From: Longimicrobium sp.
GTDB lineage: Bacteria; Gemmatimonadota; Gemmatimonadetes; Longimicrobiales; Longimicrobiaceae
Reading direction: 5' to 3'
Length of the DNA: 64,000 nt
Assembly (NCBI GenBank): GCA_036389795.1
Contig: DASVWD010000141.1
Coordinates: 1 to 64,000, forward strand
Positions 29,323-33,757 of this stretch are shown one piece after another (positions within the stretch are counted from its first letter, which is position 1; each line of letters opens with the position of its first letter). The notes beneath the pieces were generated by a model. The model saw only the letters and a program-made list of their open reading frames with translations, did no database searches and was not told where the DNA came from. Made by a program: the position numbers and the translations under genes.

Positions 29323-29394
29323 TGTGTGGTTCCGGTCCCCTGGGGACTCCGTGCGGCGCTATCCACCGGCTTTGGGCGCAACCGCCGTTTCTGC

Positions 29395-29423
29395 TTGACA
29401 CTACGGCCGCCGCCCGGCATCAT
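29395..29423 (+). promoter_or_regulatory. Sigma-70-like promoter for the chemoreceptor gene
   Basis: A consensus TTGACA at 29395-29400 is followed by 17 nt and CATCAT. It would start transcription near 29430, upstream of the TTG at 29482 but downstream of any longer start. This argues that the protein begins at 29482 or later. Confidence 0.5.
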
Positions 29424-29481
29424 TGCGCTCGCACCCGCGGCCCGCCGTCCCACCCGCCGTACCCTTCGCCACGCCACACCC

Positions 29482-31107
29482 TTGAACGACGGCACGACGG
29501 ATCTTCGCGAGCTGTTCGCGCGCGAGCGCGTGCTCGTGATGCGCGAGCGCCACCGGCAGGCGATCGTGATGCGCTGGGCGCTGGTGTTCCTGGCGGTCGC
29601 CCTGGCGGTCCTCGGGCGCCTCACCGGCTCCACCGCCGTCACCTGGGCGTGGGCGGCGGGACTCAGCCTCACCACCTTCCTCGGCAACCTGGCGGTCGAC
29701 CGGCTGGAGCGGGCCGGGCGCTTCCACCCCTGGCAGTTCTGGGGGATCGTCGCCCTCGACACCGTGGTGATGGCCGGGTTCGCCTGGGCGCTGGGGCCGC
29801 ACGGCTACCTCGTCCTCCCCTACCTGGTGTTCGCCGTGGGCGGATACGCGCTGGGGATGCCGCGCGCGGCGCAGGTGCAGCTCGCCCTCGCCGCCCTCTT
29901 CTACCCGCTCGGCCGCTGGCTGGGGCTCGGCCGTGTCGAAGACGCGTCGCCCTGGCTCGTTCTCATCGAGTGGCTGGTGCTGCTGGGGACGGGGTGGCTG
30001 TCGATGTCGGGCCCGGCGGCGTACACGCGCCGCCTGCGCCGCGTGCGGCAGGCGCTCGCCCGGGCCGAGCAGGGCGACTTCACCGCCCGCCTCCCCGAGC
30101 GGCACCTGGACGACCTGGGCTTCCTCTCCGTCTCGGTGAACAGCATGTCGAAGACCGTCGGCCGGGCGGTCCGCGAGATCCAGGAGCGCGCCCAGTCGCT
30201 CGCCCGCCTGGCCGACGAGCTGGCCGGCACCGCCGAGGAGGTGCGCGAGGCCGCCCGCCGCATCGGCGCCGGCACCGGCGAGGCGGCCCGCGCGGCGCGC
30301 GACCAGCTGGCCCTGGTGGAGACGAGCGGCCGGGCGCTGGAGACGGTGAGCCGCGAGGGCGAGCACCTGCGCGAGGAGGCCGCGCGCTCCAGCGAGGCGG
30401 CGCGCGGGCTGGCCCGCGAGGCCGAGGCGCACGCGGCGCGGATCGGGCGGGCGGCGGGGGTGCTGCTGGAGCTCGGCGAGGACTACCGCCGGCTGGAGGC
30501 CGCCGTGGGCGCGCTGGAGACGGCCGGGACGCGGGTGAGCGGCTTCGTGGCGACGATCGGCGACATCGCCGAGCAGACCAACCTGCTGGCGCTGAACGCG
30601 GCGATCGAGGCCGCGCGCGCGGGCGAGCAGGGGCGCGGCTTCGCCATCGTGGCCGGCGAGGTGCGGGAGCTGGCGGCGCAGGCGGCGGCCTCGGCGGCCG
30701 AGGTCTCGGGCGTGGTGGGCCAGACGGCGGCCGCGCTGGCGGAGGTGCGCGAGCGGCTCGCCGCCGGGAGCGAGCGGATCGGCGGGGTGGGCGACGTGGC
30801 CGAGTCGGGGCGCGAGTCGCTCGGCTCCATCGTGCAGGGGCTCGGGCGCACCGTGCGCTTCATCGAGCAGATCAGCCGCGACGTGGAGCGGCAGGCGGGC
30901 GCCCTGGAGGCGATCCGCGACGGGGTGGGGCGCATCCGGGCCATCGCCGAGGCGTCGGAGGGACGCTCGCGCGAGACCGCGGCCGAGAGCCGGGCGCAGG
31001 AGGAGGCCATGGAGCAGCTCGCCGAGACCAGCCTGCGCACGGCCGGAACGGCGTCGACGCTGGACGCCCTGGCCGCCCGGTTCCAGGTGGCCCCGGCGGG
31101 GGAGTGA
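29482..31107 (+). CDS. Methyl-accepting chemotaxis-type receptor with six membrane helices
   Basis: The product has about 541 residues from a TTG at 29482; an ATG at 29539 (MRERHRQ) is the alternative. Six hydrophobic helices (such as [13 protein letters not shown] and [19 protein letters not shown]) replace the usual two-helix periplasmic sensor. A HAMP-like linker follows ([20 protein letters not shown]). The signalling hairpin is clear: [20 protein letters not shown], then [17 protein letters not shown]. MCPs control CheA kinases. No che gene is in the window, but a kinase-like ATPase gene follows 82 nt later. The membrane-embedded input suggests sensing within or near the membrane. Confidence 0.88.
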
Positions 31108-31189
31108 CCGCCGGACGACTGGCGGCGTCCTTGCATCGGCTTTTATACTTCGAAGCGAGCTCCGCTCGCCCCCGCGCCGGGCCCTCCCC

Positions 31190-31981
31190 ATGGCATCCCG
31201 GCGCGGCACCTCGAGTCACCGGGTGGTCACGATGGACCGGTTCCGCCCCTACGACGACCCTGCTTCCCCGTTCCAGCTGCGCGAGCGGCTGGAGGCGTTC
31301 GGCCAGGTCTCGGCCGAGCTGCTGCACGACCTGGCGGAGGGGATGGCCGCGCTGGAGATGCGCGCCCGCCTGGCCGCCGCCGAGGCGCGCGCCGGCCGCC
31401 CCCCCGGCGGCGACCTGGACCGCGTGGTGGAGACCAGCACCGAGCTCGGGGCCATGCTGCGCGACGTGCTCGACGCGCTGCGCGGCCGCACCACCTCGCC
31501 CGAGGTGACCTTCCAGGTGTACCCGGTGCTGGAGCGCGCCGTGCGCTGGTTCCTCCCGGCCACCCGGCCCGTGGAGGTGCGGCTGATCTCGCACGTGGAC
31601 CCGGCGCTGGAGGTGCACGGGCGCGCCTCGTTCCTCTTCCGCTCCGTGTGGAACCTGCTGGCCAACGCCATGCACTACTGCCGGCGCGAGGTGTGGATCG
31701 ACGTCTCTCTCGAGGAGCCGCGGCGGATGGACGAGGACGCGGCCGCCGTGCTCTGCATCGACGTGGAGGACGACGGCGCGGGGCTCGACCCCATGAGCGC
31801 CGCCGAGCTGTTCGAGCCGATGGCCGACACGGGCGACCCCGAGGGCGGGCTGGGACTCAGCGGCGTGGCGTGGATGGTGGAGCAGATGGGCGGCTGGGTG
31901 CGCCACCGCCCCGGCGAGGCGCTGGGCGGCGCCCGCTTCGAGATCCGCCTCCCCGTGGCCGCCACCACGCCCGCGGGGTAG
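31190..31981 (+). CDS. Short histidine-kinase-like protein without sensor domain
   Basis: The product has 263 residues. The dimerisation helices carry LLHDLAEGMAALEMRARLAA, where His-Asp could be a divergent H-box. The HATPase part has N-box NLLANAMHYCRREV, G1 VEDDGAGLDP and G2 GGLGLSGVAWMVEQMGG. There is no transmembrane or PAS/GAF input. The start may be ATG 31190 or the inner ATG 31232 (MDRFRPYDD). Position behind the chemoreceptor suggests a shared pathway, but this is inference. It is followed by a strong terminator. Confidence 0.75.
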   Translation: MASRRGTSSHRVVTMDRFRPYDDPASPFQLRERLEAFGQVSAELLHDLAEGMAALEMRARLAAAEARAGRPPGGDLDRVVETSTELGAMLRDVLDALRGRTTSPEVTFQVYPVLERAVRWFLPATRPVEVRLISHVDPALEVHGRASFLFRSVWNLLANAMHYCRREVWIDVSLEEPRRMDEDAAAVLCIDVEDDGAGLDPMSAAELFEPMADTGDPEGGLGLSGVAWMVEQMGGWVRHRPGEALGGARFEIRLPVAATTPAG

Positions 31982-32003: not shown

Positions 32004-32040
32004 GATCCGGCCCGCCGCGGCGGCGGGCCGGATCTTTTGT
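32004..32040 (+). terminator. Rho-independent terminator after the kinase-like gene
   Basis: A perfect 14-bp stem (GATCCGGCCCGCCG and its complement) with a 3-nt loop is followed directly by TTTTGTTT. It lies 22 nt past the stop at 31981. Confidence 0.88.
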
Positions 32041-32160
32041 TTCCCGCCCTCCCCAGATCCTCTGCTCCCGCAACGAGATGCGCGCGCCGCGGGGCCGCCG
32101 GCGAACGCGTGCCGGGCGGGGAACAGAGTGGCGGCTTGGGACGAATCTGAGACAAGATTC

Positions 32161-32189
32161 TTGACATACGAGATTTAAAGCCTTATAAA
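32161..32189 (+). promoter_or_regulatory. Near-perfect sigma-70 promoter of the cold-shock gene
   Basis: TTGACA, exactly 17 nt, then TATAAA, in a locally AT-rich patch that stands out from the GC-rich surroundings. The expected start of transcription is about 32196-32198. Confidence 0.85.
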
Positions 32190-32196
32190 AGGGCGG

Positions 32197-32558
32197 TTCA
32201 GACGGCATTCTCCCGTCGGCATTCCCGGAGCGGTCCGCTCCTCCCCCTCAGGATCTCCGCGCAAGTCGGCAGGATCGTACTTCCGCAGATTCGGTTTCTC
32301 CCCGCTAGGGCCGTGGCTTCATCTCACATCTCCGCCGTTCGCCTTCGTCCGGCCGTGCCGCTTCCGGCCCGGACGTTCGTGCGTCCGCGCGGCGGGAGCG
32401 CGCGCGCCGGCGGCTGAGGGCGATTCCAGGAGAACAGGATTCTGCGCCCCGCGGGTGGGCGCCCCAACGCGCCATGACCGGCGCGACCCGCGACCAACGT
32501 CGTTGTGCGGAAGTTGCCGCACCGGCGCTCATCCAAACCGCAGATGCAGGAGTAGGAG
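32197..32558 (+). promoter_or_regulatory. Long 5' leader of the cold-shock mRNA
   Basis: About 360 nt separate the promoter from the ATG with no convincing reading frame. Several potential stems are visible (GGAGCGG/TCCGCTCC near 32228-32246, GGGTGGGCGCC near 32453). Cold-shock mRNAs in E. coli carry long leaders that refold with temperature; a similar role here is inferred. A GGAG ribosome site precedes the ATG. Confidence 0.55.
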
Positions 32559-32771
32559 ATGGCCCGCGCGACTGGCAAAGTGAAGTGGTTCAACGACGCC
32601 AAGGGTTTCGGCTTCATTGAACACGAGGGTGGCAGAGACCTGTTCGTCCACTTCTCGGCCATCAAGCAGGAAGGTTTCAAGACCCTCACCGAGGGCGAGA
32701 CCGTGGAGTTCGACATCGTGGAGGGCCCCAAGGGCCCCGCGGCGGAGAACGTGACGCGCATGGGCGCCTGA
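32559..32771 (+). CDS. Cold-shock domain protein (CspA family)
   Basis: The 70-residue single cold-shock domain has RNP1 [10 protein letters not shown] and RNP2 DLFVHFSAI, following GKVKWFNDA. It binds single-stranded RNA/DNA and acts as an RNA chaperone in the cytoplasm. The length is that of the family. Regulation is probably through the 360-nt leader and the consensus promoter at 32161-32189; a hairpin terminator follows at 32791. Confidence 0.97.
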
Positions 32772-32790: not shown

Positions 32791-32820
32791 CGAAAGGCCG
32801 TCCCCCGGGGCGGCCTTTCG
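32791..32820 (+). terminator. Terminator of the cold-shock gene
   Basis: CGAAAGGCCG and its exact complement CGGCCTTTCG flank a TCCCCCGGGG loop that can pair further. It starts 20 nt after the stop. Confidence 0.75.
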
Positions 32821-33361: not shown

Positions 33362-33522
33362 GGCGAGATCCAGCGGTTCGGTGGAGCGATGTCAGGCGGC
33401 GCGGCGTAAACCCCGCAGGGGCGCCACGGTTCCGCGCCTGAGAGAGAAACGGGCCAGAACCTGCGCAGGCCCGGCCGATTTGTCTGAGACCGGATTCCAC
33501 ATCCGGTCCTCTCGCGAACCAT

Positions 33523-33726
33523 GTCATTCCGAGCGGCGCCGCAGCACCAATCCGGGTTTCACACCTGAGCTGGGCGGCGCCCGAGGAATCTACTCGCCCC
33601 GTCCGGATGCTGGCTTTGTGCAGTGATCCGGCCTCTTGCCTGCCGCGGGTAGATTCCTCGGGAGCCCGGCCGACTTCGGTGGCGAATGCGAGCCCAGCGC
33701 ATCGGGCTCCACTCGGAATGACAGCT
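33523..33726. repeat. Dispersed inverted repeat family I, copy 2
   Basis: It begins GTCATTCCGAGCGGCGCCGC and ends with CACTCGGAATGACAGC. Inside, CCGAGGAATCTACTCGCCCC is answered by GGGTAGATTCCTCGGGAGCC. Nothing gene-like is seen in 33362-33834. See also 118-296 and 62585-62656. Confidence 0.75.
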
Positions 33727-33757
33727 TCCCAATGCACAGCGAATTCCGGGAGACGGT

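Follow-up and report, generated by a model that had tools for sequence, protein, structure and literature searches.

A leader with a predicted pseudoknot before a cold-shock gene of Longimicrobium sp. and its probable relatives in Gemmatimonadota

What is the role of the long untranslated stretch that lies between a strong promoter and a small cold-shock (csp) gene in Longimicrobium sp.? The locus was analysed within a window of 64,000 nucleotides, the term being used here for the whole stretch of DNA. A preliminary description of this window, made from the letters alone, had noted a near-consensus promoter followed by a long leader, and had proposed that the leader might be an independent thermosensor. 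Cold-shock leaders are understood in a few model bacteria.

Promoter, transcription unit and leader

The features of the transcription unit are as follows.

32004 to 32038, plus strand: intrinsic-terminator-like hairpin closing the upstream unit, with a 14-bp stem (hairpin 32004-32034) followed by T-rich TTTTGTTT
32161 to 32189, plus strand: sigma-70-type promoter, TTGACA-17-TATAAA
32197 to 32558, plus strand: predicted 5' leader of about 362 nt, delimited by the promoter position and the ATG, with its start placed from the -10 hexamer
32197 to 32438, plus strand: 5' part of the leader, rich in pyrimidines (57% C+T)
32548 to 32552, plus strand: Shine-Dalgarno sequence AGGAG, read from the sequence and aligned in relatives
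32559 to 32771, plus strand: cold-shock protein gene, an open reading frame of 70 aa with a PF00313 (CSD) match
32792 to 32819, plus strand: 9-bp inverted repeat GAAAGGCCG..CGGCCTTTC, a possible terminator after csp, seen in the sequence and given no call by the scanner

The hexamers were placed by direct reading of the sequence, with TTGACA at 32161-32166, TATAAA at 32184-32189 and a spacer of 17 nt. This promoter is the sole site in the 64-kb window that agrees with the consensus at 11 of 12 positions, and no such site was found in 15 block-shuffled windows. The pattern TTGACA-N16-18-TATAAW was found in 3 copies in the 7.5-Mb genome, with 0 for the reversed-pattern control; the other two near-consensus promoters of the genome lie at G000:C48:6718-6746 and G000:C234:37232-37260. 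Direct counts were used because the consensus-promoter scanner requires a T at the sixth -10 position and so omits the site at 32161-32189. Conservation was followed in a set of 11 orthologues, composed of the window gene and 10 relatives with protein identities of 81-96%. TTGACA was found 265-398 nt upstream of the gene in all 11, and also before two more distant csp genes, at -191 and -459; this occurrence in 13/13 related csp genes compares with a chance rate of 2.7% in shuffled 500-nt upstream regions. The -10 hexamer is less conserved than TTGACA among the orthologues, being weak in G014, G001, G009 and G015. The near-consensus promoter named in the preliminary description is confirmed.

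The 70-aa product contains a cold-shock domain (PF00313, E 8e-30, 102.9 bits, cut-off 27). An in-frame TAG at 32553-32555, 6 nt ahead of the ATG at 32559, excludes an earlier start of this protein. With the hairpin at 32004-32034 upstream and the inverted repeat at 32792-32819 downstream, csp looks like a single-gene unit. The same-strand genes upstream (29326-31981) encode a methyl-accepting chemotaxis protein (HAMP, MCPsignal) and then a HATPase_c protein, and are followed by the hairpin at 32004-32034. In the intergenic stretch past the csp unit, at 33515-33730, two inverted GTCATTCCGAG-like stretches of REP-like appearance were seen by eye.

The predicted leader measures 229-362 nt across the 11 orthologues. 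With transcription starts placed from the promoter, its exact length is not fixed, yet all 11 are long. Two parts can be distinguished in it. The 5' part is variable in sequence and pyrimidine-rich, with 57-61% C+T in 11/11 orthologues; the 300 nt that precede the promoter have 44-54%. Conservation in the orthologue alignments is higher over the final ~115 nt, where a hairpin, a second hairpin, the CCGCG motif, a third hairpin and the Shine-Dalgarno sequence follow one another. The long leader proposed in the preliminary description, with its predicted start, is thereby supported, since its promoter and an RNA structure are conserved in relatives; the unconserved leader that would have spoken against it was not observed. 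An upstream open reading frame from the ATG at 32473 was considered and discarded, as by eye it is not preserved among the aligned relatives.

Predicted pseudoknot and hairpins before the ribosome-binding site

Directly before the Shine-Dalgarno sequence, an H-type pseudoknot and hairpins can be formed by the final ~115 nt of the leader (32443-32561). The elements are as follows.

32444 to 32462, plus strand: pseudoknot stem 1, GCGCCC (32444-32449) with GGGCGC (32457-32462), arms chosen by hand
32468 to 32485, plus strand: hairpin H2 (CGCGCC..GGCGCG), within pseudoknot loop 3, with two-sided change at 2/6 pairs in alignment A4
32486 to 32492, plus strand: 3' arm of pseudoknot stem 2, ACCCGCG, with its hand-chosen partner at 32450-32456
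32505 to 32522, plus strand: hairpin H3 (GTGCGG-AAGTTG-CCGCAC), preceding the ribosome-binding site, drawn from alignment and pairing

The loop of stem 1, CGCGGGT (32450-32456), doubles as the 5' arm of stem 2, and the CCGCG of the stem 2 3' arm is invariant across 9 aligned orthologues. At the sequence level, an H-type pseudoknot can be drawn in 10/11 orthologues, with the arms picked by hand. In G009, both stems have other complementary arms (CGTTTCC/GGAAACG and CGTCC/GGACG); in G015, both stems differ, and their replacement by other pairing arms is partial. In G001, stem 1 is visible and no stem 2 was discerned by eye. A free pseudoknot search of the window leader gave a knot whose score was reached by 0/30 shuffles. 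In several other leaders (e.g. G004-G006 and many paralogues), the best knot of the free search lies elsewhere; single-sequence knot scores were therefore not counted as proof. RNAalifold was unhelpful, its A4 fold mixing a true stem with a long-range one and its A6 fold being trivial, and the structures were instead written by hand and then counted.

Counted in this way, the 9 close orthologues show modest covariation: two-sided changes occur in 3 cells, a number matched by 13/500 shuffles, and further pair types show no excess (452/500 shuffles as high). A covariance model built from these 9 orthologues (R1) was found to recover the 2 held-out orthologues at the right place, with E values of 5e-4 and 2e-3 per genome in a search that scored 150 candidates per genome. 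Two weaker R1 matches were obtained at G006:C128 (E 0.05) and G014:C134 (E 0.08). A further match, in G020 (E 0.011), was rejected; it lies inside a 725-aa open frame that resembles, by eye, a D-Ala-D-Ala ligase region.

Related csp leaders across Gemmatimonadota

Comparable architecture was found in the leaders of other csp genes of the same genome and family. In a scan for compact knots, 36/153 csp leaders gave a hit, compared with 13/153 antisense and 9/113 downstream stretches; the knots are enriched in csp leaders but not specific to them. The csp loci of the family were represented by 38 regions, drawn from among the matches listed. From 42 leaders, 20 with a knot-like core were chosen by eye to form alignment A6 (18 leaders of this family and 2 from other Gemmatimonadota), the other 22 being excluded. 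In this selected set, a hand-written structure of stem 1, stem 2 and H3 leaves 87.6% of cells paired, whereas sliding the partners gave no more than 51.4%; two-sided cells numbered 15, versus 4.7 in shuffled alignments (0/500 as high).

The paralogous leaders of A6 were used to build a covariance model (R2) that covers stem 2 and H3. Within the order, it matches at least 73/146 genomes at E <= 0.01, with 27 candidates scored per genome, and at least 118/395 Gemmatimonadota genomes at E <= 1e-3, with 10 candidates scored per genome. From outside the family, 80 R2 loci were analysed; they are a subset of the matches listed, mostly the stronger ones, and since L229 is the training sequence L055, 79 of them are independent. 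A csp coding sequence was found in 80/80 of these regions, on the same strand as the match, and the distance from the end of H3 to the assigned csp start is 22-33 nt throughout. In the alignment of these loci (A7), 88.8% of cells are paired and 60 two-sided cells were counted versus 18.4 in shuffled alignments (0/500 as high), in rows that were selected by the model, so that the counts for stem 2 and H3 lean towards structure. Stem 1 lies outside R2. In a register-free test, it scored 10.35 with its own partner versus 8.43 with swapped partners (0/200 as high), and a stem of at least 4 bp was found in 57/78 loci, whereas 100 partner swaps gave 37 on average and never more than 46; in the fixed columns of A7, stem 1 shows no excess (68.0% versus 67.9% at slide -1). 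When R2 was applied to 78 csp loci of mixed phyla, 5 matches at E <= 1 were returned, all in Gemmatimonadota; two of the five, L055 and L107, had served to train the model. The covariation in csp leaders of relatives that the preliminary description had proposed to look for is thus seen in the wider family and modest among the nine close orthologues. A covarying pseudoknot and hairpin before csp genes across the phylum suggests an RNA element of control that has not been described so far.

Does the leader in the window belong to this family? R2 scores the window locus at 15.8 bits (E 0.1), in register, and the orthologous leader of G011 at 33.7 bits (E 1e-6). At E <= 1 it detects the leaders of 6/11 orthologues; in 5 of the 6, including that in the window, the match begins no more than 1 nt from where R1 places the start of the knot. 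When the whole genome was searched with R2 at E <= 0.01, two other csp leaders were recovered and that of the window was not. A third model, R3, was built solely from genomes outside this family. It matches 9/11 orthologue leaders at E <= 5 (best 0.006), with 2 off-target matches in 62 kb, and misses G001 and G009 at this threshold; the window locus scores 15.5 bits (E 0.11), out of register. All 9 matches end at the ATG or within a few bases of it. Their starts coincide with the knot start in G011 and G004 only, those of the other 7, including the window's, lying 13-28 nt further in. The scores of these 7 thus depend chiefly on the part from H3 to the ATG. In addition, R1, R2 and R3 all contain the Shine-Dalgarno sequence and the ATG. 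As judged from these placements, the part from H3 to the ATG is common to the class, and the knot is in register in some of its members; H3 of the window is taken as the counterpart of the conserved CGG..CCG hairpin of A7. Membership of the class in the wider csp-leader RNA is therefore likely, each single sequence being marginal, and the window leader is probably a divergent, terminator-less member of a Gemmatimonadota csp-leader RNA.

Possible modes of control

The leader is best explained, at a rough probability of 0.55, as a pseudoknotted cis-regulatory csp leader that acts on translation and is a divergent member of the phylum-wide RNA; the register of the R3 matches slightly lowers this probability. 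In this explanation, the strong conserved promoter would give a single-gene csp mRNA whose long leader ends in ~115 nt of structured RNA, with an H-type pseudoknot followed by a hairpin ahead of the ribosome-binding site. The element would most likely be a cis-regulator of translation initiation, and of mRNA stability. The pseudoknot and H3 may keep an unstructured stretch open around the Shine-Dalgarno sequence. Access to that sequence would change when the element is remodelled, possible causes being the cold-shock protein itself and slower folding at low temperature. The place of the element beside the ribosome-binding site is nearly fixed, even in operons with an rpsU-like gene before csp (L146, L148 and L172, by eye), which suggests translation rather than transcription initiation as the level of control. 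Any trigger, and any autoregulation, are likewise proposals. Many relatives may have a second control in the form of an intrinsic terminator early in the leader; in the class of the window gene, a longer pyrimidine-rich segment takes the place of this terminator and is a plausible landing site for cold-shock protein.

A simpler explanation would be that the leader is an ordinary stable one, its hairpins just insulating the ribosome-binding site or protecting an abundant mRNA with no regulation at all. G+C-rich hairpins easily arise in this genome, and the strong promoter and the almost flat temperature response obtained by modelling (see below) would both suit such a leader. However, a covarying pseudoknot found across the phylum, a distance of 22-33 nt between H3 and the start codon and the presence of csp in 80/80 loci exceed the needs of insulation, and this explanation is regarded as rather improbable.

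The proposal that the leader senses temperature is treated here in the form known from E. coli cspA, in which cold alone would refold the leader and expose the Shine-Dalgarno sequence. The csp gene context, the length of the leader and its conserved structure are in its favour. Accessibility of the Shine-Dalgarno sequence was modelled at 5 and 55 °C in the 11 orthologue leaders, as nested folds, with pseudoknots, kinetics and proteins lying outside the model. The change from 5 to 55 °C was found to be just 0.03-0.19, and the site to be more open in the warm in 10/11 leaders, the wrong way for a cold-induced switch. Accessibility in the window leader (G000) rises from 0.11 to 0.16, and the largest rise is that of G008, from 0.31 to 0.50. 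The sole leader modelled as more open in the cold, a point for the thermosensor, is that of G011 (0.45 at 5 °C and 0.36 at 55 °C). The helices of the leader are G+C rich, which also argues against a thermosensor, and the enterobacterial cspA thermoregulator family, RF01766, does not match the leader. The modelling weakens the idea of a thermosensor without refuting it; such a reading is not favoured, appears unlikely, and the suggestion of an independent thermosensor in the preliminary description finds no support in these results.

The comparison with RF01766 requires some care. With Rfam 15, nothing in the 64-kb window reached the gathering threshold, and no family matched positions 32150-32620 at E <= 5, RF01766 included. 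At the paralogous loci, RF01766 was matched in 8/8 of those searched, at 27-38 bits, which is under the cut-off of 78. When one of these loci (L003) was split, its coding DNA alone (1498-1780) gave 54.6 bits with RF01766, from model position 170 on, and its leader alone (1250-1497) gave no RF01766 match and only three weak matches to unrelated families. In the one locus that was split, the RF01766 signal thus stems from the coding region. Because csp coding DNA alone yields such matches, annotation of csp thermosensors by RF01766 needs care, and sub-threshold matches near csp genes tell little about the leader.

How does the leader compare with known systems? The enterobacterial cspA thermoregulator is similar in being a long structured csp 5' leader with proposed control of translation. 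In contrast, a compact pseudoknot characterises the wider family described here, many members of which also carry a terminator, and the leader has no RF01766 match. RNA thermoswitches in csp leaders of S. aureus have reportedly been described by Catalan-Moreno in 2021. Short H-type pseudoknots near the ribosome-binding site are also found in the preQ1-I, SAM-II and SAM/SAH riboswitches. Unlike these, the 80 loci precede csp and not metabolic genes, and the leaders have no Rfam match. In Bacillus subtilis, according to PMC8307031, four suppressor mutants carry point mutations in or near a cold-shock box of the cspC 5' UTR, and the one mutant UTR that was fused to lacZ raised expression. The cspB and cspC leaders are similar to the present ones in having conserved elements in csp 5' UTRs, but belong to another lineage and are described there as having boxes rather than a pseudoknot and hairpin (PMC8307031). 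No description of a csp-leader element of the present kind was found among the matches listed in the openly licensed literature; the relevant content of PMC8307031, PMC3738593, PMC9947658, PMC4166951 and PMC7858274 concerns other lineages.

A more specific way in which access to the ribosome-binding site might be controlled is a switch in which the 3' arm of H3 pairs either with its own 5' arm, opening the site, or with the Shine-Dalgarno sequence, closing it. The 5' arm of H3, GGUACGG, is repeated at many loci of the wider family by the sequence that begins with the Shine-Dalgarno (GGAGUACGG), and over the 80 loci the complementarity between the H3 3' arm and this site is 15.1, compared with 10.9 (sd 0.26) for shuffled sites. 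However, no clear covariation was observed (15.13 for own pairs versus 14.84 for swapped ones, sd 0.19, maximum 15.26), the Shine-Dalgarno sequence is conserved in any case, and by eye the pattern is absent from the window leader. Masking by the H3 3' arm is thus put forward as a hypothesis, and one of low probability as an account of this leader. In the last 20 nt before the csp start of L215-L294, a TACGG spacer between Shine-Dalgarno sequence and start codon recurs at many loci and repeats the H3 5' arm.

Control could also be exerted on transcription, by attenuation at a leader terminator whose read-through is governed by cold-shock protein or by translation. Terminators were found upstream of 14/46 csp paralogues of the family, compared with 2/230 shuffles, and at 31/80 loci across the phylum, compared with 11/400 shuffles, in counts that scan a fixed stretch and, where no promoter was recognised, may include the terminator of an upstream gene. 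Wherever a promoter was recognised, it lies upstream of the terminator (8/8 in the family and 12/12 in the phylum). The terminator-bearing leaders of paralogues are likely attenuators. In the title of a study cited by PMC7858274, proteins of the E. coli CspA family are termed antiterminators; against this, CspB and CspD of B. subtilis are reported, in PMC8307031, to promote termination and not antitermination. In the class of the window gene, an intrinsic terminator was found in 0/11 leaders between promoter and gene, so that attenuation by an intrinsic terminator is inapplicable to it, and attenuation as the explanation of this leader is very improbable. Rho-dependent termination within the pyrimidine-rich segment is possible.

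The translational reading can be extended, tentatively and at less than even odds, to a wider proposal: that an undescribed leader RNA of Gemmatimonadota responds directly to cold or to the amount of cold-shock protein, that its H3 3' arm can mask the Shine-Dalgarno sequence, that it is coupled to an early terminator in many species, and that it arose independently of the enterobacterial and Firmicutes switches. A covarying pseudoknot element before csp genes in many members of a large, little-studied phylum would mean that this problem had been solved there independently. A defined RNA of 100 nt is now available for probing. Since some members of the family naturally carry an early terminator and others lack one, they also make it easy to test whether a csp leader responds to temperature or to the protein that it precedes.

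Some details of the terminators may be added. A terminator between promoter and pseudoknot was seen in L003 (G000:C200, 1330-1500), L143, L144, L146, L147 and L151, and the same placement in L158, L163, L167 and L170, in paralogous csp and rpsU-csp-like units. Several terminators of paralogue leaders have a GACCTGG..CCGGGTC-like stem.
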